A stretch of 64,000 nucleotides of DNA from Vicingus serpentipes (GTDB lineage Bacteria; Bacteroidota; Bacteroidia; Flavobacteriales_E; Vicingaceae), in contig NZ_VOOS01000002.1 of NCBI RefSeq assembly GCF_007993035.1, positions 310,001 through 374,000 on the forward strand, in the 5' to 3' direction. The notes beneath the pieces are model-generated. The model did not search any database. It had not been told where the DNA came from and worked only from the letters and a program-made list of their open reading frames with translations. The translations under genes and the position numbers were made by a program. Of the stretch, positions 14,148 to 26,400 are shown piece after piece (positions within the stretch are counted from its first letter, which is position 1; every line of letters starts with the position of its first letter).

Positions 14148-14245
14148 GAAAAATGCTTAGTAAAAAGATAAAACAATACAATCAAAACGGTTAAAGTGCC
14201 TATTAAAGCAAAATACCATTTATTCCAATTTATTTCATTACTCAT
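14144..14245 (-). CDS. 33-residue single-helix membrane peptide between deacetylase and symporter
   Basis: ATG at 14245, TGA ending at 14144. The product begins MSNEINWNKWYFALIGT and has one hydrophobic helix (about residues 11-29) followed by a short basic tail, TKHFS. It starts inside the last codons of the PIG-L gene (8-nt overlap) and its TGA overlaps the symporter ATG (ATGA), so translational coupling is built in on both sides. The position and the Trp-rich amphipathic start suggest a small accessory subunit of the SSS transporter; small accessory proteins are known for other symporters. Too short for similarity by eye. The coding call rests on overlap architecture and composition. Confidence 0.65.
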   Translation of the reverse strand: MSNEINWNKWYFALIGTLTVLIVLFYLFTKHFS

Positions 14246-16709
14246 TACCTAAACTTATTAAGTTAACAAATAAACGGTAAGCACCCGGAACTGCTGCTGG
14301 CAATTCTCTAAAGAAAGATATTCCAGTATAAACATAATGTCCCTTTCCATATTTAGCTACCAACAAACTACCATTTTTAGCAGGTTCATTTTTATCGTGC
14401 CAACTCAAAACGGCATCGTATTTCTCATCCCATTCATTCGGAAAATACAAGCCTCTTTCCTGCACCCAACCTTCAAAATCAGCTTTTGTAATTTTATTTG
14501 GCGCATTTAAAACTGGGTGCTCTGGCTTTAAAAAAGTAACCTCTGCATCTTCTTCTGTAACTCTATCTCTCGAAAGTTTTAAATTGTAAGGAGCAAAAGC
14601 ATCTGTTTTTAAACGATGACTTGTATTGTATTGCATTATTAAAGTACCGCCATTTTCAGCATAAGCTAATAATTTTGGCATAATAAACTCCATTCTATCG
14701 TTAACATTTACTGCTCTTATTCCAACTACTATTGCATTGTACTGTTTTAAATTATCTAATGCTAAATCCGACTCTAAAATCTCATCAACATTATATCCGA
14801 TACTTGTTAAAGCTTCTGGAATTTTATCTCCAGCACCATTAAAATAACCAATCTTATTTCCTTTTGTTTTTAAATCAACAAAAACCAACTTTGACTTAGC
14901 TTTTGGCATATAAATTTGTGTAGGGATATGATCATAAATAATTTCATTTATAGACTTATCATAAGTTTTTTCATTAACGGTAAGCATAGCTTTTAAATCA
15001 CCTATTTCAGCTTCTACGGAAGGAGTTAACATCACTTTCATTTTCTGCTCTTCTCCTTTTTTTGCTAACTTAATATCAAAGCTATTCTGCGACAATTCCC
15101 ACCCTTTAGGTGTATCTAACTTTAGCTTAGTATTAACGTTTGTTGAGTTTGATTTGATTGTTAATTCTATCTCCCTAGAATTTAAATTTGAAAACAACTG
15201 TAATTGCTCTGAGAAGTTTACAAAAACAGGAGGTACAATTACAAATGGACGATATGACTCACCTTTTACCGGATCGTTCCATTTATAAATTAATGGTATT
15301 TGATAAGTAATTTCTACACCATCTAACTCGCAAACTAACTTAAAGTTAATTGCTGAATCATTTTCTGGTTTACCTATATTTAATTGATCATCTACCTTAT
15401 AAGTACCTAAAGTACCTTCTTCTTTTAACCAGTAAGGTTGAGATATTTCAATATTTCTTGGAACAAAAAATGTATGGTTGTAATCAATCTTTTTGTTTTG
15501 ACTTAAAACAGAGTCCATTTTCATTTCAAGATTTAATTCTTTTGAAAAAATCTTTTTTATTTTAAAATTTGAATAAGTTCTTGTAATAAATTCAAAATCA
15601 ACTTTTATTGAATCACCAGGTACAGTTAAATAATCTTGAGCTCTTGCTTCAAAATAAATTCCCATACAGTTACGAATCAATTCATCAATTTCTTTCAACT
15701 TAATTTCTTTCCAAAATTTATCGTTTATTTGATTGATTTCCTTTTTTAAATTGATTAATTGAGGTACTGATAAATGAGGTTGTTCAACATTATAATTAGA
15801 AACAAGCTCATTAATTAACGATTCTATTTTTTCAGATCCTTTAACTCTAGTCCAATCAGTTTTATAACCTTCAAAAAGAGAATGTTTAGCTTCTTCACCT
15901 TTTAAATGCTCAAAATACTCAATCAATTCTCCTCTACTACCTGTTGAACCAAAACCTTGACTTTTGTGCATTGTTCTACTTTTCGCAGCCAGTTCGTTAT
16001 ATGAAATTCCTAATGTGTTATTATATAAACCAATATCTTCTGCAACAACACCTGGATCATTTACCGATATTTTATCATTCCACCAACGACCAGTATTAAC
16101 AACAATTCTCTTGGGTTGCCATACATCAACATATTTTAATTGCTCTGGATATTTTGTTTTGTCAGCAGCTAAATCAAAAGCCTCAACACCTAATAATGCA
16201 GATGAAGTATGATGACCATGACCACCACCACCATCAGTTGGGAAACGACAAACAATTACATCCGGTCTGAATTTTCTAATTACCCAAACTACATCAGCTA
16301 ATATTTTATCTTTATCCCAAATTTCAAGCGTTTCTTCAGGGTTTTTAGAATATCCAAAATCATTTGCTCTACTAAAAAATTGTTGTCCACCATCTGTTCT
16401 TCGAGCTGCCAATAGCTCTTGTGTTCTTATAATACCAAGCTCTTCACGAATTTCTGTTCCAATTAAATTTTGACCTCCATCACCTCTCGTTAAAGATAAG
16501 TAAGCTGTATTGTATAATTTTTCGTTTGCCGAATATGCAATAAAACGAGTATTCTCATCATCTGGATGAGCAGCTAAATACAATACATTTCCTAATACAT
16601 TTAACTTTTGAATTTTTTGATAAATCTCTGATGATGATAGTTGTTTTGGTTGCTGAGCAAAGCCAACTAAAACAACAAAAAGAGAAACAATTAAACCTAT
16701 TTTTTTCAT
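14238..16709 (-). CDS. PIG-L family deacetylase, large secreted form
   Basis: 823 residues. A signal peptide ends near VLVGFAQQ (about 20). The PIG-L/LmbE N-terminal domain follows, with the zinc motif AHPDDENTRF (H48, D50, D51) and the third ligand in GGGGHGHHTSSA near residue 165. A middle part of about 400 residues is beta-rich, and the C-terminal part is probably a glutamine-amidotransferase-like ThuA-type fold (YNAIVVGIRAVNVND; GTLIMQYNTS). PIG-L enzymes remove acetyl groups from GlcNAc-type sugars using zinc. Export plus coupling to an SSS transporter suggests extracytoplasmic processing of an amino-sugar conjugate before uptake. TAGTTTTG at 16722-16715 lies only 5 nt from the ATG. Confidence 0.85.
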   Translation of the reverse strand: MKKIGLIVSLFVVLVGFAQQPKQLSSSEIYQKIQKLNVLGNVLYLAAHPDDENTRFIAYSANEKLYNTAYLSLTRGDGGQNLIGTEIREELGIIRTQELLAARRTDGGQQFFSRANDFGYSKNPEETLEIWDKDKILADVVWVIRKFRPDVIVCRFPTDGGGGHGHHTSSALLGVEAFDLAADKTKYPEQLKYVDVWQPKRIVVNTGRWWNDKISVNDPGVVAEDIGLYNNTLGISYNELAAKSRTMHKSQGFGSTGSRGELIEYFEHLKGEEAKHSLFEGYKTDWTRVKGSEKIESLINELVSNYNVEQPHLSVPQLINLKKEINQINDKFWKEIKLKEIDELIRNCMGIYFEARAQDYLTVPGDSIKVDFEFITRTYSNFKIKKIFSKELNLEMKMDSVLSQNKKIDYNHTFFVPRNIEISQPYWLKEEGTLGTYKVDDQLNIGKPENDSAINFKLVCELDGVEITYQIPLIYKWNDPVKGESYRPFVIVPPVFVNFSEQLQLFSNLNSREIELTIKSNSTNVNTKLKLDTPKGWELSQNSFDIKLAKKGEEQKMKVMLTPSVEAEIGDLKAMLTVNEKTYDKSINEIIYDHIPTQIYMPKAKSKLVFVDLKTKGNKIGYFNGAGDKIPEALTSIGYNVDEILESDLALDNLKQYNAIVVGIRAVNVNDRMEFIMPKLLAYAENGGTLIMQYNTSHRLKTDAFAPYNLKLSRDRVTEEDAEVTFLKPEHPVLNAPNKITKADFEGWVQERGLYFPNEWDEKYDAVLSWHDKNEPAKNGSLLVAKYGKGHYVYTGISFFRELPAAVPGAYRLFVNLISLGNE

Positions 16710-16772: not shown

Positions 16773-19220
16773 TTATATTTTAAATTGTATAGTAAAATAA
16801 AAATTTCTGATTGCAGAAGGAATAATTCCTGGTCCAGGATATCCTGTTGCTCTTCTTGTAAAATAAACTTCGTTAGTTAAATTATTAACTCCTAACTCAA
16901 ATTTTAATTGACCTAAATCATACTTACCTGATAAGTCCATAACATGATAAGATGGAATAACTCCAATTATTGCATTTGGAACAAACACTAGGTAGCCTTC
17001 AGAATCTTTTCCTGCATTTGTTGCATCACTATATTGTTCATCTACAAATGAATATTGATATGATAGTCCAAATTTTTTGTAAGAAATATTTAGTCCTGTT
17101 TTAAAGTTTAAAGCTGGTACAAATTCCACATTTTTATCTTTAAAAGCAGAGCTTTGAGACTCAGTATATCTAGCATCTGTAAATGCTACATTGACAAAAG
17201 TTCTAAATGAAAAATCACTGGAGTCTGAAACAAATATTTTCCATAAATCTACTTCAACCATAGATTCTACACCTCTTATTAATGCTTTTGAAACATTAGT
17301 ACGATATCTATAAGGAATAAAAGTTTGCTCATCTACTTGATCTATTTCACCAATACGATTATCATATAACAACATAAATCCTGATATATCATAATTTAAC
17401 TTGTTTTGAATAACGCCTCTAAAGCCTAAATCAAAATTGAATCCTGTTTCATCTCTTAAATTTGGATCGATTTTAAAGTTTTTGTTCTGAATTTGCATAT
17501 CAGAAAAATTGATGCTTTTATAATTCTGAGAAAAATTGGTGTAAATATCTAGCTTATTTGAAGCTTTAAAATTCAATCCTATCCCTCCAATTACAAATGA
17601 TCGTTTACTAGTTTTTTCTTCAAAAAAAGTAGTATCAAAAACAATATTTCCAGCTAAATCATAAACAATATCATTATAACTTCCATCAGCATTAGTTATG
17701 ATATTTTCATATCTTACCCCAGGAGTAATACTGAACTTTTGACCTATTCTAAAAATATGTTCAGCAAAAAAAGCAATATTTTGACTAGGAAACTCATAAT
17801 CAGACCCCTGAGTTTGCTTTTCATTAAAAGTGAAATTAGGTAGATCTGTAGAATCAGCATCCCCTTGTCTGCTTCTATTGTATCCTTTGTAAATTCTAGC
17901 TCCTAATAAAATTGCCCAGGAATTTTTACCAACATCATACAACTGCAAAAAGCGCGTCTCATTTCCAATATTTTTAAACTCACCAGTAATTAAATTACGA
18001 TTTTCATAAGTCCTATCTGGACGACTTATATTACCTAAAGTACCAAGAGCTTTTCGAGATGCACTTAGACCAAAAAATTGAGTTTTTATTTTTGTTTTAC
18101 TTGAAAATTCGTGAGTAATATTAAATGCAAACAAATTCCAATCTACTTCAAACCAATTCCTCCCTCTTTTTGATTGATATGGGTCTGTATAAAATTCTTT
18201 ATCTGTTAATCCTCCAGGTTGACGAGCTAAATAATACATTTTGGTAAGCTCAATATTTACAAATGTTTTTTCAGATAAATATTTCCCAACATTAACCGCT
18301 CCAGAAAAAACCTCGAAATTTGAATTAGGACGCCAATCATTCCCTTTTTTATGTTGAAAATAACTATACCCCTTCCAGTTACTCGAATTAAAACCAACAC
18401 TCAAAAAAGTATTATTTAAATCAAACGAACCTATTGTTTGACGAGCAGTAACTTCAAAAGCTTTACCAGAAGTTGTAGGTTCATCATGCAAAACAAAATT
18501 GAGTAAACCTCCAAATTGAGTTCCAAATTGCAACGAAGCAGCACCTCTAATCAGTTGAATTTCTTTTATAGCTTCTGTTGGTGGGGTATAATAACTTTCT
18601 GGATAACCAAGTGCATCGGCACTAATATCATATCCATTTTGTCTAGTATTAAAATTAGAAGTTCTGCTTGGATTCAAACCTCTTCCTCCAATACCTAATT
18701 GAATTCCAGCACCATCACTTTCCCATATATTTAAACCAGGTACTCTTGAGTAAATCTGACGACCTTGATTAGTTGCTTTATTCGCATTTATTTCGGATAA
18801 ATTAATTACTTCATTTTTCTTACCTTGACTTATAGTTAAGCCTTCAATAGACCTCATACGTTGAACATCTCCTACACCTTCTTTTTCTCCTTCCAATTGA
18901 AAAGATTTAAGCTGTTCTGATTTAACTTCTAACTTAACTTTAATGATTTTTAATGATTCGTTAAGTTCAATTTTATTTTGAACTTTATGATAACCTAACA
19001 AAAAATAGGAAATTGTATAATTTCCATACTCAACATTTTCAAAAGAAAACTCTCCTTTCTCATTTGTTTGTGTAGATTTATTTAATTCAGAAAGGTAAAT
19101 ACTACAATAAGGCAAAGCTTCATTAGAAGTTGATTTTACGCTACCAGCAATACGACCTTTATTTTGAGAAAAAGCTATACTAAAAAAGAAAATAAAAAAA
19201 ATAAATGTCAAAAACCTCAT
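16773..19220 (-). CDS. TonB-dependent outer-membrane receptor, FecA-like
   Basis: 815 residues. A signal peptide ends FFFSIAFSQ (about 19). An N-terminal carboxypeptidase-regulatory-like domain (22-105, GRIAGSVKSTSNEALPYCSI) precedes the plug (about 125-245; GRQIYSRVPGLNIWE, IQLGIGGRGLNPSR, IKEIQLIRGAASLQFGTQFGG) and a 22-strand-type barrel ending in an aromatic C-terminus. The plug and barrel resemble FecA and other ferric-chelate receptors. It is the last gene of the DUF4856-imelysin-receptor operon, 8 nt after imelysin. With the Fur-like operator upstream, ferric-chelate or other metal uptake is the best inference; the ligand is unknown. Confidence 0.88.
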   Translation of the reverse strand: MRFLTFIFFIFFFSIAFSQNKGRIAGSVKSTSNEALPYCSIYLSELNKSTQTNEKGEFSFENVEYGNYTISYFLLGYHKVQNKIELNESLKIIKVKLEVKSEQLKSFQLEGEKEGVGDVQRMRSIEGLTISQGKKNEVINLSEINANKATNQGRQIYSRVPGLNIWESDGAGIQLGIGGRGLNPSRTSNFNTRQNGYDISADALGYPESYYTPPTEAIKEIQLIRGAASLQFGTQFGGLLNFVLHDEPTTSGKAFEVTARQTIGSFDLNNTFLSVGFNSSNWKGYSYFQHKKGNDWRPNSNFEVFSGAVNVGKYLSEKTFVNIELTKMYYLARQPGGLTDKEFYTDPYQSKRGRNWFEVDWNLFAFNITHEFSSKTKIKTQFFGLSASRKALGTLGNISRPDRTYENRNLITGEFKNIGNETRFLQLYDVGKNSWAILLGARIYKGYNRSRQGDADSTDLPNFTFNEKQTQGSDYEFPSQNIAFFAEHIFRIGQKFSITPGVRYENIITNADGSYNDIVYDLAGNIVFDTTFFEEKTSKRSFVIGGIGLNFKASNKLDIYTNFSQNYKSINFSDMQIQNKNFKIDPNLRDETGFNFDLGFRGVIQNKLNYDISGFMLLYDNRIGEIDQVDEQTFIPYRYRTNVSKALIRGVESMVEVDLWKIFVSDSSDFSFRTFVNVAFTDARYTESQSSAFKDKNVEFVPALNFKTGLNISYKKFGLSYQYSFVDEQYSDATNAGKDSEGYLVFVPNAIIGVIPSYHVMDLSGKYDLGQLKFELGVNNLTNEVYFTRRATGYPGPGIIPSAIRNFYFTIQFKI

Positions 19221-19228
19221 TTACACTA

Positions 19229-20374
19229 TCAATCTCCGTCGTTATCTTGATAAGTAATTAAAACACCTAAAGCATCAGTTAATTCTATTTTCATCTTAGG
19301 AACCAACATTTGCATTTGCTGATAAACATCTTTAACTGCTTGATTATTTGTCAATACTTCATTACTTAATGGATCATTAATTAAATTAAGTTTATCATTT
19401 ATTGAACTAATTTGATTATTTATAGCCGTTTCCAATCCTATTCCACTTGATGTTGCATTTATAAATATTAAATAATCATCAAAGCCTTCACCTGCCATAT
19501 TTGTTATATAACTATTACCATTAATAAATTTATGAAAAGAACTTAGAGAACGATAAACGTATGGTAAAGATTCTTGAATATACATAGCTTCAACATGATT
19601 AGGCATCGGTGTTTGAGTAAAGCCATTAAAAACACCAGATGGTAATCCAATTTTACCTTTTCGAATATAAGTTTCAAAATGCAAATTTAAAGCATTAACC
19701 AAATCACTTACAGAACTACCTTGCGCATTGCTTGAGCTATTACCTATAAATGTTGAAGCATAACTATTTGACCATTCAGAATAAACATAGTCAGCATTAG
19801 TTTTTAATTCATTTACCACATCTTTTAAATATGTTTTTGCATTTGTGTTAGAAGTAAAATAATCAACTATTTCTTGATCATTTCCACCAATTCCATTTAT
19901 TAAGTAGTCAACACTTTGAAAACCTTTAGCTGAATAATTAGAAGCTGATTGTAAATTATAAGACCCAACATTAATATTATTCAAAATCAAGGATGTATCA
20001 GCAGGGTAAACATTGGTTTGACTTCTTAATGCAATATATTCAGCTGGACCAAATTCTAAAAAAGCTACATCTTGCCATACAAGTAGCGCGTCTTTCCATT
20101 TAACTCTTAATTGTTGTAAATTAGATAAAGTTGGAGTTGCTGTAAAAGTTTGTGTTTCATTATACAACTCTAGCAAATCAGTTTTATAAACACTATAGGC
20201 TGGTAAAATATAAGAATTGGTATAATTCGTTAACATCAATTGACGATTATAATCATCAACACTAATAGTTTCATCATCAAACTTTACTTTATTCTCTTTT
20301 TTACATGCAAAAAGAGAAACTAATATTAGCGCTAAAAAAACATATACAATATTTATTAATAGATTATTTTTCAT
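19229..20374 (-). CDS. Imelysin family lipoprotein
   Basis: 381 residues. The signal peptide ends in LVSLFAC, with Cys24 as lipid site. The all-helical imelysin domain follows (about 45-375). Landmarks are VKWKDALLVWQDVAFLEFGP in the first bundle and GFQSVDYLINGIGG where the family has its GxHxxE signature. Here the His and Glu positions read Gln and Asp, as in a subgroup of Bacteroidota imelysins, so metal binding may differ from EfeO or IrpA. Imelysins take part in iron uptake. It lies 69 nt after the DUF4856 gene and 8 nt before the TonB receptor. Probably surface- or periplasm-exposed partner of the receptor. Confidence 0.87.
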   Translation of the reverse strand: MKNNLLINIVYVFLALILVSLFACKKENKVKFDDETISVDDYNRQLMLTNYTNSYILPAYSVYKTDLLELYNETQTFTATPTLSNLQQLRVKWKDALLVWQDVAFLEFGPAEYIALRSQTNVYPADTSLILNNINVGSYNLQSASNYSAKGFQSVDYLINGIGGNDQEIVDYFTSNTNAKTYLKDVVNELKTNADYVYSEWSNSYASTFIGNSSSNAQGSSVSDLVNALNLHFETYIRKGKIGLPSGVFNGFTQTPMPNHVEAMYIQESLPYVYRSLSSFHKFINGNSYITNMAGEGFDDYLIFINATSSGIGLETAINNQISSINDKLNLINDPLSNEVLTNNQAVKDVYQQMQMLVPKMKIELTDALGVLITYQDNDGD

Positions 20375-20443
20375 ATCGTTTTTATCGAGTAAATATTTAA
20401 TGAGAATAAAAATATATTTATAAATTCTTTTCCTTATGGCAAC

Positions 20444-21613
20444 TTACAAACTTGTCTTAACAGAAGTTAATCCAGTTTTTGAAGCAACTAAATCTATTAG
20501 AGTATTAATATCTGAAACAGTAATATTTTCAAAATCGTTTAGATAAACTAAAGCTGTGTCAATTTCAGTTGAAGTCATGCCATTTCCTGAAACTGAATTA
20601 TAACCATACCTTAACCCATCAATTAACCCCTTGGCTTCAGAAAGCTGATGATTTTTTAAAACAGAGTTTGTAAGGTTCGATTTAGCTTGATTTAAATAAT
20701 TAATTGCTGTTCCGGCACAAATTTTTTCCATTTCATTTCTAATTATTGCTATTTGAACATCTCTTGTTAAATAATCTTTATTATCTATAGCTGCCCTTCC
20801 TGTTCTAAAAGCTTGAGAAATTGTCGTTGCAGACCCTAAAACAGCTTCTCTTGCAAAAGTATACTTACCCCAAAACCTATCAGTACCTTCAGTTGGATAA
20901 TTAATTTCAGAAGTAAAATATCCATATGCTTCATCCCAGTGATGTTGCATTTCAGTGTAAGTTTTTCCTGAAAGGATATTATCATTATCATCATTAGCAA
21001 TTGACCCTAAATAATTAATTGTCATTTGATTCATAAACACAGCACAGATCAACACTTTCTCAACCATTTCTTTATATTCTATTCCTGAACCCGCTTGTAA
21101 ATAACTTTTAACACCATTATCCCAAACACCACCAAATCCGTATGTACCAGCACTATTATCATAATTAAGATTACTTAATACCTCTAGAGAGTCAAAGTAA
21201 TTTTCAACCATATTTTGAACACCAACATCACCTTCCGCTGTTTTATCTTTTAATTGCTTAGTTGAACCCGTTAACCCTAAAGCAGGAACATCTAACCAAG
21301 TGTACCCAGTATTAGCATACATATTATTAAGAGTTGAAGCGCTAATACTTACTCCTAATGTATTTGCAGTTTTTATATAATCTATCAATTCCATTGCCAT
21401 TTCTAAACGCTGCTTCTGACCATTAAAATCGACAGTGCTAGCTCCAGAAGCGTTTACAAAATTGTATGTAGAGGGAACACTATAACTTGGCTCTATTGGG
21501 TTTGGTATTTCAACCACAGGTATAGGTGACTCATCATCTTTAGAGCAACCAATTGAAAAAATTACAATTGAAATTATAAATAAAGCTTTAACTAATTTTA
21601 AATTAACCATCAT
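20444..21613 (-). CDS. DUF4856 domain lipoprotein
   Basis: 389 residues from the first of two adjacent ATG codons. The lipobox is IVIFSIGC (Cys23), followed by an acidic-proline linker. The rest fits DUF4856: SYSVPSTYNFVNASGASTVDF, GQKQRLEMAMELIDYIK, MQHHWDEAYGYFT and RNEMEKICAGTAINYLNQAK. DUF4856 proteins are regularly encoded with imelysin and a TonB receptor in Bacteroidota, and are thought to act in the same metal-uptake system. The protein is helical, like imelysin, and HHWDEAYGYF may be functionally important. First gene of the operon, with a consensus promoter and an overlapping 21-bp palindrome upstream. Confidence 0.87.
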   Translation of the reverse strand: MMVNLKLVKALFIISIVIFSIGCSKDDESPIPVVEIPNPIEPSYSVPSTYNFVNASGASTVDFNGQKQRLEMAMELIDYIKTANTLGVSISASTLNNMYANTGYTWLDVPALGLTGSTKQLKDKTAEGDVGVQNMVENYFDSLEVLSNLNYDNSAGTYGFGGVWDNGVKSYLQAGSGIEYKEMVEKVLICAVFMNQMTINYLGSIANDDNDNILSGKTYTEMQHHWDEAYGYFTSEINYPTEGTDRFWGKYTFAREAVLGSATTISQAFRTGRAAIDNKDYLTRDVQIAIIRNEMEKICAGTAINYLNQAKSNLTNSVLKNHQLSEAKGLIDGLRYGYNSVSGNGMTSTEIDTALVYLNDFENITVSDINTLIDLVASKTGLTSVKTSL

Positions 21614-21649
21614 GTCTTTTTTAAATAATTAATATACTTATACTGTTTT

Positions 21650-21670
21650 TATTTAGACTTATTCTAAATA
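21650..21670. promoter_or_regulatory. Fur-like operator of the DUF4856-imelysin-receptor operon
   Basis: 21-bp palindrome with perfect 8-nt arms TATTTAGA and TCTAAATA around CTTAT. It can also be read as 10-1-10, or as a 7-1-7 core TTAGACT-T-ATTCTAA like PerR/Fur boxes. It lies 6 nt downstream of the -7 element and covers the expected transcription start, so a bound repressor would block initiation. The same palindrome occurs at 23320-23340. Fur is the favoured regulator because of the genes; DtxR-type regulators are an alternative. Confidence 0.75.
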
Positions 21671-21676
21671 GCAAAG

Positions 21677-21707
21677 CAAAAGTATAACACATAGGATAAT
21701 AGAACAA
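21677..21707 (-). promoter_or_regulatory. Promoter of the DUF4856-imelysin-receptor operon
   Basis: Minus-strand TTG (21707-21705), 20-nt spacer, TACTTTTG (21684-21677): a full consensus match. The palindromic operator begins 6 nt downstream and the start codon is at 21613. Spacing and -7 sequence equal those of the regulator promoter at 23346-23376. Confidence 0.75.
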
Positions 21708-21711
21708 TACC

Positions 21712-22659
21712 TCATTTAAGGTATTTTAAAAAATTAATAAAAGGATTAATTAAATTTTTGAGAAAGGAATCGTAGTTATTATCTTCACTTTTTCCCAAAC
21801 CAAAGCGCAATTGAACAACCTTCTCGGATCGAACTAAAGTACCAAAAATCCAATCCCAAATAGCAAACCTAGACCCCATATTCTTATCATAATGCTCTTT
21901 TTTATTACTATGATGTATTTGATGTTGGAAGGGACTAATAAAAATATATTCCAAAAAATTATAATACTTGAATTGAACATGAGAATGACGGAGGTTTGAG
22001 CCAAAAGCTAAAAAAATAAAATTAAAGATATTAATTCCTAAAAAAGTAATTAAAGAAACTTGTCCATTTGCCAAATAAATAAAAATTCCCGTTAAACATC
22101 CTTTTACAAAAATCCCCCTAACATTATTAATAATTAACTCAACAGGATGTATTCTATATTGCGTAAATGGATTTAAAACTGTTGCAGAATGATGGATTTT
22201 ATGAAACTGCCATAAAAAAGGAATTTTGTGCATTAGATAATGTACAATAAAACTCATAAAATCGTTAACAACAATAATAGTTAGCGTATAAGTTGCCAAC
22301 AATGTAGTTACGGACCAATTTAATTTGCTAATTCCAAATTGACTTGTTAAGTATTCACTTATAAAAAGAGTTAGATATAGTGCGTACACCAACATAGGTG
22401 CAATAAAAAAAACCTTGATTAAACTATTAAAAAATATAAACCCATAATCAATGATAGCTGACTTTCCAATCCAGATTTGTTTTTTAAACAAATACCCTAA
22501 AAAAGACTTTTTTAAACCGGACTTTACATAAACAATATATGCTAAAAGTAAAGAGGTAAATAGATAAAGAATAAAAACTCTTTTATCAGGGCTTAATAAA
22601 TAGCTAAATGGCATTTTAACTATTTCGTTGAACTGATTAAATAATTCATTAATAGTCAT
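21712..22659 (-). CDS. Fatty acid hydroxylase / sterol desaturase family membrane enzyme
   Basis: 315 residues with several hydrophobic helices and the three histidine clusters of the family: HYLMH, HKIHH about 13 residues later, and HQIHH near residue 250, plus RHSH between them. These bind a di-iron centre that hydroxylates or desaturates lipid chains at the membrane. The end carries the usual WDWIFGTL motif. It follows the regulator gene by 22 nt and so shares the Fur-like promoter at 23.35 kb. An iron-dependent enzyme under an iron-type operator is a sensible pairing, but the lipid substrate is unknown. Confidence 0.87.
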   Translation of the reverse strand: MTINELFNQFNEIVKMPFSYLLSPDKRVFILYLFTSLLLAYIVYVKSGLKKSFLGYLFKKQIWIGKSAIIDYGFIFFNSLIKVFFIAPMLVYALYLTLFISEYLTSQFGISKLNWSVTTLLATYTLTIIVVNDFMSFIVHYLMHKIPFLWQFHKIHHSATVLNPFTQYRIHPVELIINNVRGIFVKGCLTGIFIYLANGQVSLITFLGINIFNFIFLAFGSNLRHSHVQFKYYNFLEYIFISPFQHQIHHSNKKEHYDKNMGSRFAIWDWIFGTLVRSEKVVQLRFGLGKSEDNNYDSFLKNLINPFINFLKYLK

Positions 22660-22681
22660 TAATAACGAAATAAATACAAAA

Positions 22682-23311
22682 TTATGTATTGATTATATTT
22701 TCTTTAATCGCATAAATAACAATGCCAGCGGTATTTTTTATACCTAGCTTAGCCATGATATTTTTACGATGAGTGTTAACGGTGTGCGTACTTAAACACA
22801 GAGTATCGGCAATCTCTTTGTTTGTTTGTCCTTCTGAAATTAAACGAATAACCTCTAGTTCCCTATCAGATAACGAAATACCATCACAGCCAATTTTCTG
22901 GTCATCTTTATCTGATAAAATATCAATCACATGCCCACAATAAAATTGCTTGCCATTACAAGTATCTTCAATGGCTTCAAGAATCTCTGGTTTTTGACAA
23001 TCATCTAACAAATAACTATCAACACCAGTTTTTAACGCCTTTATAATTGTTTGCTTAGGCTGAACATTAGTTATTGCTAGAATCTTAGTGTTTTTGTATA
23101 TTTTTTTTATTTCAGCAATAAAATCAACACCAAACTTCTCATTGGAATAATCAATAACTATCAAATCAGGAAAATACTTTTTGCTAGATTTTATTAATGC
23201 TTGTTTAGAATCAACAACACCTAACACCCTATTCCTAAGACGGCTCTGCAGGATGGTTTTCAGACCTTCTCCAACAATTAGGTTGTTATTTGCTATTAAT
23301 ATATCAATCAT
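22682..23311 (-). CDS. LuxR/NarL-type response regulator with degenerate receiver pocket
   Basis: 209 residues. The receiver (about 1-120) keeps the phosphoacceptor position D54 in DLIVIDYSN and T81, but the acidic pair is Asn (N8, N9 in ILIANNN) and the conserved Lys is Asp (YLLDD, D103). Normal Mg2+-dependent phosphorylation is therefore doubtful. The C-terminal LuxR helix-turn-helix (about 143-205) is intact: LSDRELEVIRLISEGQTNKEIA and LSTHTVNTHRKNIMAKLGIKN. No histidine kinase gene is adjacent. It is first in an operon with the hydroxylase gene and carries the same operator-promoter as the metal-uptake operon, so it is probably made under the same (iron-limited) condition. Confidence 0.87.
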   Translation of the reverse strand: MIDILIANNNLIVGEGLKTILQSRLRNRVLGVVDSKQALIKSSKKYFPDLIVIDYSNEKFGVDFIAEIKKIYKNTKILAITNVQPKQTIIKALKTGVDSYLLDDCQKPEILEAIEDTCNGKQFYCGHVIDILSDKDDQKIGCDGISLSDRELEVIRLISEGQTNKEIADTLCLSTHTVNTHRKNIMAKLGIKNTAGIVIYAIKENIINT

Positions 23312-23319
23312 TGTAATTT

Positions 23320-23340
23320 TATTTAGACTGATTCTAAATA
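23320..23340. promoter_or_regulatory. Fur-like operator of the regulator-hydroxylase operon
   Basis: 21-bp palindrome with arms TATTTAGA and TCTAAATA around CTGAT, identical to the site at 21650-21670 except for one spacer base. It starts 8 nt upstream of the regulator ATG and ends 5 nt from the -7 element, again covering the start of transcription. Confidence 0.75.
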
Positions 23341-23345
23341 ATTAA

Positions 23346-23376
23346 CAAAAGTAGTTATAGAATTCTTATATTACAA
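23346..23376 (-). promoter_or_regulatory. Promoter of the regulator-hydroxylase operon
   Basis: Minus-strand TTG (23376-23374), 20-nt spacer, TACTTTTG (23353-23346). Identical in both boxes and spacer length to the promoter at 21677-21707, and followed by the same palindrome. Confidence 0.75.
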
Positions 23377-23450
23377 GTTATTTTTGTTTTTGTTTAAACC
23401 AGTTTTGTTTGCTTTTTTATATTCTTTAAATTTACTTGATTGAGAACTTT

Positions 23451-26400
23451 ATGACTAAACGAATTTTATATCTTCTAATTGTTTTCATCCTCTGTTACAA
23501 TAATGTTAGAGGAGGTGATGATGGAATTAGATTTATAGAAAATAAAGGACAATGGGAAAATCAAGTTTTATTTAAAGCTAATTTAGGAAACGGAGCTCTC
23601 TTTGTTGAAAAAGATCGATTTACATTTAACCTATACAATGCTGAGGAGTATTCAAAAAATCATTTTTCTGCTACTCAAGAATTTACTCCTTTAAAACAAC
23701 ATGCTTACCAAGTTGAATTTATTAATGCACAATCTCCAGCTATTAGTAGCAAATCAAAATTTAGTGAGTATTATAATTTTATTCTTGGAAAAGATAAAAA
23801 TAAATGGAAATCAAATATTACTGCATATCAAATAGTTAAATATAACAACCTATATAAAAATATTAACTTAAACCTTTATTCTTCGGGCAACTTTTTAAAG
23901 TATGATTTCATCTTAAACCCTAACAGCAATATTGAAGATATTATATTAAACTATAAAGGTGTTGATGAATTAAAAATTGATAACGCTGGAAATTTAATTG
24001 TAAAAACATCAGTTGGTGATGTTATTGAACAACAACCTTACTCCTACCAATTAATTGATGGTAAAAAAGTAGAAATAAAAAGTAAATATGTGCTAAAGGA
24101 TAATTTAGTTTCATTTAAAGTTTCTGGAAATTACAATAAATCTCTTCCTTTAATAATAGACCCTATATTAATATTTGCAAGTTATTCTGGTTCTACTGCT
24201 GATAACTTTGGCATGACAGCAACTTATGGTTATGATGGAAGTTTATTTGCAGGAGGAACCGTATTTAATAATGGTTACCCTACTACACTTGGTGCTTACG
24301 ATTCTTCATTTAATGGTTCTACAGGTAGCGGAATAACTGATGTATGTATTACAAGATATGATTCAACGGGAACAAATTTAATTTACTCAACATACATAGG
24401 TGGAACTGCTACAGAAACTGTTCATAGTCTAATAGCAAATGAAGACAACGAACTTTATCTATATGGTGCTACTAGTTCTCTTGACTTTCCTACAACACTT
24501 AACTCTTATGTAGATACTTTTTCAGGAGGAACTAGTGTTTATTACGTAAGTAATGGCTCCAACTTTACAAATGGAACAGATATTTACATCGCTAAATTAA
24601 GTGCTAATGGCTCAAACCTTCTTGGATCTACTTATTTAGGAGGCTCACAAAACGATGGAGTAAACTCAACAGCTAATTTAAGTTATGATAGTTTGATGAA
24701 TAATTATAGTGACCAATATAGAGGCGAGATTATGTTAGACCAACAAGGTAATTGTTATTTAACTTCATCAACTAAATCACCCGACTTTCCAATTTTAAAT
24801 GGCTTTGATAATACTTTAAATGGAAACCAAGATGCGGTTATAATTAAGCTTAATTCCGATTTATCTGAGTTAAAATGGAGTACATATTTAGGTGGAGACA
24901 ACAAAGATGCTGGATATTCTATAAAAGTAGACACCAATAACTTTGTTTATGTGTGTGGTGGAACAGCTTCTAATAACTTCCCTACAACACTAGGAACAAT
25001 AAATACAGGATACTTGGGCGGGAAAGCTGATGGGTATATAACAAAGATTGATACAAATGGTTCTCAAATATTATCTTCAACATTATTGGGTACAGATAAT
25101 TATGATCAATGTTATTTTATAGAAATAGATAGACATGGAAGTATATACACAGTAGGTCAAACTAGAGGTGTTTTTCCATTAGTAAATGCTACTTACATCA
25201 ACCCAAACAGTAGCAGCTTTATCGTTAAACTTAATAATGATTTAAACACAATCTATTATTCAACTGTTTTTGGTAATGGAAACATTAACGCAAAATTTTG
25301 CCCCTCAGCATTTTTAGTAGATAGATGTGAAAATGTATATGTTTCTGGATGGGGAGGAGACATCTTAACTGGTGCTAGCTTATTCAATATGCCAACTACT
25401 TCTAATGCTGTTTTTCCAAATTCTCCAAATGGATTTGATTTCTACTTAATTGTGTTAGAAAGAAACCTAGCCTCTCAACTCTACGGAACATATTTTGGTG
25501 GTCCCACCTCCAGAGAACATGTAGATGGAGGAACAAGTCGATTTGACAAAAATGGAATAGTCTATCAATCGGTTTGCGCAGGTTGCGGAAGTAATGATGA
25601 CTTCCCTACTTATCCAAACCCAGGAGTATGGTCAAACACTAACAATAGTAATAATTGTAACAACGGTACTTTTAAATTTGATTTTGAGATTATTCCAAAA
25701 GCACAATTTACAGTAGACAATTTTGAAGGCTGCTCTCCATTAACAGTTACTTTTAACAATACAAGCAATAGTAGCGACTCTTATTTATGGGATTTTGGTA
25801 ATGGAGATACCACTTCTCTAGTTTTTAATCCAATAAGAACTTACAACACTCCTGGAACTTACACAATCTCACTTTTAATAAAAGATTCCATCTGCAACAC
25901 CATTGATACAGCCTATCAAGTTATAACTGTAAACCCACCAATAAATATTACAGCAATAACAAACGATTCTACTTCATGCGAACCCGTTTTGCTAAATCTT
26001 TCAGCTACTGGTGCCACTTCTTTTATTTGGTCTAGCAATAATCAATTTACTGACACTCTAAATCCTAGCTTAAGCGATACTTTAACTGTGTATGGAGGAA
26101 ACACAATAACTTATTACGTAATGGCAACCAATGGAGAGTGTAGTGATATCGATAGCGTAACTATTACATATCATATCCCTTCAAATTCCAACTTTTTACT
26201 TGATAATATTCAAGGTTGTGCGCCATTAACTGTTAATTTCACAAATACAAGTGGGCCAAATGATTTCTATTTATGGGATTTTGGAAACGGAAATACTTCT
26301 TCTACAGTCTTAAACCCTAGCATAACTTATAATACTCCAGGAACTTATACAGTATCATTAACCATTACAGATTCTATTTGTGGAACAACAGATGTAAAAT

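Follow-up and report, generated by a model that had tools for sequence, protein, structure and literature searches.

In Vicingus serpentipes, an orphan response regulator of the NarL/FixJ type and an imelysin-TonB receptor operon likely form a two-tier iron-starvation switch, in which Fur would repress both the regulator gene and the uptake genes and, upon iron loss, the regulator would accumulate and activate the uptake promoters. We draw this reading from comparative sequence analysis of the Fur boxes, the association of such boxes with the regulator across Bacteroidia, a triad of cysteines in the regulator, and a second palindrome, TACC-N8-GGTA, with its gene associations. Both operons lie within a 64,000-nucleotide stretch of the genome, here referred to as the window (Table 1).

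Two operons, two promoters and a shared palindrome

Table 1. Features of the uptake and regulator operons, in window coordinates
Feature	Position	Strand	Remarks
TonB-dependent receptor	16773..19220	-	Weakly FecA-like (under NCBIfam cut-off); domain match 9e-30
Imelysin / M75 lipoprotein (PF09375)	19229..20374	-	Domain match 9e-25
DUF4856 lipoprotein (PF16148)	20444..21613	-	First gene of uptake operon; domain match 2e-52
Fur box 1, TATTTAGAATAAGTCTAAATA	21650..21670	-	Just 3′ of the -7 box in the promoter of the DUF4856-imelysin-TonB operon; agrees with the Fur box published for R. anatipestifer
Uptake promoter -7 element, TACTTTTG	21677..21684	-	Pattern position in window
Uptake promoter -33 element, TTG	21705..21707	-	N20 spacer to -7
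TACC-N8-GGTA (NarL-like 7-2-7)	21708..21723	-	Candidate activator site of the cysteine regulator; abuts the -33 TTG and overlaps the 3′ end of the hydroxylase gene
FA_hydroxylase-family membrane di-iron enzyme	21712..22659	-	Domain match 9e-23; 23 nt after regulator
NarL/FixJ-type orphan response regulator, Cys105/Cys125/Cys142	22682..23311	-	Response_reg and GerE domains
Fur box 2, TATTTAGAATCAGTCTAAATA	23320..23340	-	5′ of the regulator gene
Regulator promoter, TTG-N20-TACTTTTG	23346..23376	-	Pattern position in window

A previous interpretation made from the DNA letters, here called the sequence-only reading, had named the genes as DUF4856, imelysin, TonB receptor, LuxR-type regulator, and hydroxylase, with which the domain matches agree. 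A gene for a PIG-L-type deacetylase (window 14238-16709, same strand) lies 63 nt past the TonB receptor, possibly within the same operon. The hydroxylase had also been assigned to the candidate iron regulon, but the arrangement does not centre on it: of 30 family loci, a homology search detected a hydroxylase homologue after the regulator in only 5, which rules out a conserved partner of the regulator, and because of this low count the enzyme is probably a lineage-specific local passenger of the regulon.

Both promoters take the form TTG-N20-TACTTTTG and are followed by the same palindrome, at a distance of 6 nt from the -7 element in the uptake promoter and 5 nt in the regulator promoter. The two copies, TATTTAGACTTATTCTAAATA and TATTTAGACTGATTCTAAATA, have exact arms (TATTTAGA-N5-TCTAAATA) and 5-nt centres, CTTAT and CTGAT, that are one base apart; this arrangement had been described in the sequence-only reading and is confirmed by the positions. 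A more fitting description of the repeat, absent from that reading, is a Fur-type box of 21 bp in 10-1-10 form. Since -33/-7 promoters in Bacteroidota usually read TTG-N20-TANNTTTG, the common promoter form is ordinary; the common palindrome is not. The -7 and -33 elements are also named in PMC5609570. When up to three mismatches are allowed, the window contains 4 palindrome matches against 3.6 expected, and the two boxes are the only matches with zero mismatches. An Rfam search of window positions 19000-24500 returned no match.

Across the V. serpentipes genome searched (2,918,678 bp, 2.92 Mb), the palindrome occurs with at most one mismatch in 7 places, all intergenic, adjoining imelysin-TonB, regulator-hydroxylase, sdhC, feoAB, sufA-sufB, nfu, and a cytochrome c operon, nearly all of which are iron genes. 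The sequence-only reading had proposed this search and had held that a scatter at unrelated genes would speak against a regulon; no such scatter was found. With the fuller consensus TATTTAGAATNATTCTAAATA and up to two mismatches, the whole genome yields 8 places and the reversed control 0, and these genome-wide counts rule out a chance repeat. The feoAB and suf boxes lie directly 3′ of the -7 element, in the same layout as in the window; the sdhC box lies 5′ of the likely promoter, and some sites may therefore not act in repression. At sdhC (L003), the cytochrome c operon (L005), and nfu (L006), the box seemingly lies 5′ of or overlaps the likely -33 element, not the start, and Fur might act differently there. 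Boxes also precede a U32-peptidase-like gene in two relatives (L199, L200).

The 21-bp boxes of the window match ATTTAGAATTATTCTAAAT, the Fur box of R. anatipestifer and thus a box bound by Fur within the same phylum; gel shifts on four promoters showed that Fur of that species recognises this box, and its imelysin-TonB genes are upregulated both on iron loss and in a fur mutant (PMC5609570). V. serpentipes carries a Fur gene (L014) two genes before purA, which is also named as a neighbour of F. psychrophilum fur. The palindrome might instead be an autoregulatory operator of the cysteine regulator, or an operator of a DtxR/MntR protein, as could be argued from its nearly constant presence at the regulator promoter and from the occurrence in the genome of one DtxR-type gene and of a second, PerR-like member of the Fur family (L015, beside ahpC and sod). 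However, six genomes in which every NarL-type regulator is without the cysteine triad keep the box at feoAB, sufB, sufS, hemA, haem oxygenase, DUF4856, and TonB genes, and R. anatipestifer Fur gel-shifts promoters that contain the box (PMC5609570). This alternative is largely refuted and very improbable, and its autoregulatory form is ruled out by the triad-less genomes. Because these genomes keep the box at iron genes, the palindrome is most likely read by Fur and not by the cysteine regulator. The Fur-box half of the system, namely the box and the repression of imelysin-TonB genes, is already known biology.

The regulator and its three cysteines

With a receiver, a GerE helix-turn-helix (HTH), and a NarL fold, the protein is a NarL/FixJ response regulator; its predicted structure (mean pLDDT 91) shows the NarL/FixJ fold and comes closest to VraR, LiaR, and RcsB. 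No NCBIfam equivalog was reached, the best being MctR at 126 bits against a cut-off of 300. By sequence comparison, the regulator is a member of a Bacteroidia-wide NarL/FixJ-type subfamily. A Fur box precedes the start codon in all 30 orthologous loci first examined, which belong to the window's own family. A further 105 loci (L047-L151) came from a class-wide sample and from 80 named genome contigs, which include Vicingus serpentipes, Crocinitomix, and Cryomorpha ignava and in part repeat species of the first set. Of these loci, 96 have a box scoring at least 16/20 at the regulator start or within a few tens of nucleotides before it; the background is 13 of 2824 chunks, and several of those 13 are real boxes nearby. 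More distant orthologues, chosen down to E about 1e-46, also have the box in 18 of 20 cases. The 96 further loci and 18 distant orthologues support the earlier suggestion that the regulator belongs to a candidate iron regulon. In one relative, a second regulator paralogue (L198, G005:C12) is likewise equipped with a Fur box, together with a promoter that nearly matches the TACC-N8-GGTA form. No earlier report of the cysteine regulator was found in the open-access literature and, judged against that literature, the new part is the regulator, not the Fur-box half.

The boxed orthologues are nearly uniform in three cysteines: Cys105 and Cys125 are each present in 107/107 and Cys142 in 106/107. 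In 20 NarL-type paralogues from the same genomes, Cys125 and Cys142 are absent throughout and Cys105 is found in two; these paralogues lack the box and retain an intact acidic pair, and they show that the cysteines do not characterise the NarL-type regulators of these bacteria in general. The window regulator has Asn8-Asn9 (ANNN) in place of the acidic pair, keeps Asp54, and has Asp instead of Lys103, and it therefore lacks the full set of acidic pair, phospho-Asp, and Lys that defines a canonical phosphorelay receiver. The loss of Lys103 and the Asn residues at both 8 and 9 are seen in the window's own branch, whereas most relatives retain Asp8 and Lys103; Asp54 is generally retained. At position 9, where an acidic residue is the norm, the 107 boxed orthologues mostly have Ser, Asn, Lys, or Gly. 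Asp54 is lost in one boxed orthologue with all three cysteines (L232), and also in the f28 lineage, where Cys105 and Cys125 are kept. The regulator probably does not rely on an ordinary phosphorelay, but given the retained Asp54 and, in most relatives, Asp8 and Lys103, it may still be phosphorylated.

Situated near the receiver end and in the linker, the three cysteines would probably tune the activity of the regulator, either by binding iron, an Fe-S cluster, or another metal or by sensing redox state, with iron, an Fe-S cluster, zinc, or thiol redox as candidate ligand chemistry. Alternatively, the cysteines could be structural or only redox-active, as in a RitR-like thiol switch, and bind neither iron nor an Fe-S cluster, with the cascade otherwise as proposed. 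This is possible, if not quite probable: a lone cysteine in the linker serves as the peroxide sensor of RitR, an orphan response regulator that controls iron uptake (PMC5965902), and Cys142 falls within a linker that is predicted with low confidence, whereas the regulator considered here is iron-controlled and has three invariant cysteines, not one.

TACC-N8-GGTA at the uptake promoters

The second palindrome at the uptake promoter, TACC-N8-GGTA, had not been mentioned in the sequence-only reading. Its 7-2-7 geometry suits a NarL-type protein and, together with the position of the site, suggests a class II activator of the NarL type, for which the regulator would be the obvious candidate. The composite TACC-N8-GGTATTG-N20-TANNTTTG is present in many relatives, usually with a Fur box 6 nt past the -7 element. 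In a class-wide set of 296 genomes, the pattern TACCN8GGTATTGN20TANNTTTG was found at 104 places in 84 genomes; the reversed pattern gave 1 place and a version with a scrambled palindrome 2. Sixteen of the 104 sites, from seven families, lie within 5 kb of a regulator gene, where 0.26 would be expected (P about 1e-23, with shared ancestry ignored), although these 16 are only a minority of the sites, which tells against the switch. The composite occurs in 67 of 139 genomes with the regulator, compared with 17 of 157 without a strong regulator match, so a related NarL-type regulator may read the same site in some genomes. Nine of the composite sites in genomes of the latter kind belong to one family, f32, in which five genomes (G076, G113, G171, G196, G219) between them have several TACC-N8-GGTATTG promoters and no strong regulator match.

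Within the home family, 28 of the 31 examined promoters with TACC-N8-GGTA also have a Fur box, either past the -7 element or within the -33/-7 spacer. Composite promoters precede genes for DUF4856 lipoproteins, TonB receptors, and proteins of HmuY-like and porin-like kinds; where the Fur box lies in the spacer, the product is a Lys/Cys-rich peptide of 48-53 aa. This peptide (...KKKKK..CCEKFKKKGK.CCKSCPLNWA) is represented by L012 (G000:C5 about 24471-24670) and, in relatives, by L286-L291, L300, and L303, and it matches no Pfam family above cut-off. In the V. serpentipes genome, TACC-N8-GGTA is absent at the regulator's own promoter and at the feoAB, suf, nfu, and sdh boxes; the second tier would therefore reach only part of the regulon.

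These distributions bear on a plain Fur regulon, in which the regulator would be one more Fur target with a role outside iron uptake and TACC-N8-GGTA would belong to another activator. The identity of the Fur box, the feo, suf, nfu, and sdh boxes that lack the second palindrome, and the composite sites in certain genomes that gave no strong match to the regulator are all compatible with it. Nevertheless, such a regulon is unlikely, given that, in seven families, the site adjoins the regulator gene at about 60 times the frequency predicted for random placement, that it is far commoner in regulator-bearing genomes, and that its geometry is of the kind expected for a NarL-type protein.

In the two-tier switch that we favour, iron-loaded Fur would cover the transcription start at each of the two promoters, so repressing the uptake operon and the regulator gene; falling iron would cause Fur to leave and allow the regulator to be made; and a regulator dimer would then bind TACC-N8-GGTA just 5′ of the -33 element, the class II activator position, and boost the uptake promoters. 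We infer both the binding of Fur and of the regulator in V. serpentipes and the direction in which the latter regulates. The earlier claim that a Fur-like repressor silences both promoters agrees with the Fur-box match and the iron-gene targets, but simple co-repression does not hold, since the regulator probably activates the uptake promoter. A broader proposal, which we put forward tentatively as a good possibility still short of probable, is that a second sensor of iron is widespread in Bacteroidota, namely an orphan protein of the NarL type whose three invariant cysteines form a site for iron, Fe-S, or thiol chemistry. Fur would set its amount and iron or redox state its activity, and by way of TACC-N8-GGTA it would activate uptake genes as well as a tiny Cys/Lys-rich peptide, so that it and Fur would combine in AND-type logic on a single promoter.

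Relation to known iron regulators

Apart from Fur, little of the iron control in Bacteroidota has been mapped. The proposed switch offers a conserved second tier with a defined regulator, a candidate binding site, and a target list, and suggests a route by which a receiver domain could become a metal or redox sensor. The regulator occurs in environmental groups, ranging from Vicingus to relatives of Crocinitomix and Cryomorpha.

The R. anatipestifer Fur regulon shares with the present system the box ATTTAGAATTATTCTAAAT and an operon for imelysin and a TonB receptor under iron- and Fur-dependent repression, which is proposed for the window; in contrast, the portion of PMC5609570 cited here describes neither a response regulator nor a TACC-N8-GGTA element. 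SsoR of Shewanella oneidensis (PMC11045786) is an orphan response regulator repressed by Fur through a Fur site over the -10 element and start and, as in the proposed switch, activates iron-uptake genes that are also directly repressed by Fur. It differs in being of the OmpR/PhoB type with an intact phosphorylation pocket, and the portion of PMC11045786 cited here describes no cysteine triad, whereas the window regulator is of the NarL/FixJ type, carries a triad of invariant cysteines, and occurs throughout Bacteroidia. The SsoR group is defined by an OmpR/PhoB-type HTH; with its GerE HTH, the window regulator is SsoR-like in its proposed action and not a member of that group.

RitR of Streptococcus pneumoniae has an HTH of the OmpR type, from a family other than that of the window regulator, and to our knowledge RitR is under no Fur control. 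It resembles the window regulator, as proposed here, in being a response-regulator-derived, phosphate-independent, and cysteine-based control of iron uptake, but it has a receiver without Asp and a single cysteine, and it represses uptake (PMC5965902). The RitR family is delimited by an OmpR-type HTH, an Asp-less receiver, and linker Cys128; the window regulator, a NarL-type protein with Asp54, falls outside it. NarL, VraR, LiaR, and RcsB, all of the NarL/FixJ type, share with it the fold, the HTH, and an inverted site of the 7-2-7 type, and the window regulator is set apart from these regulators by its cysteine triad and by the loss of the acidic pair.
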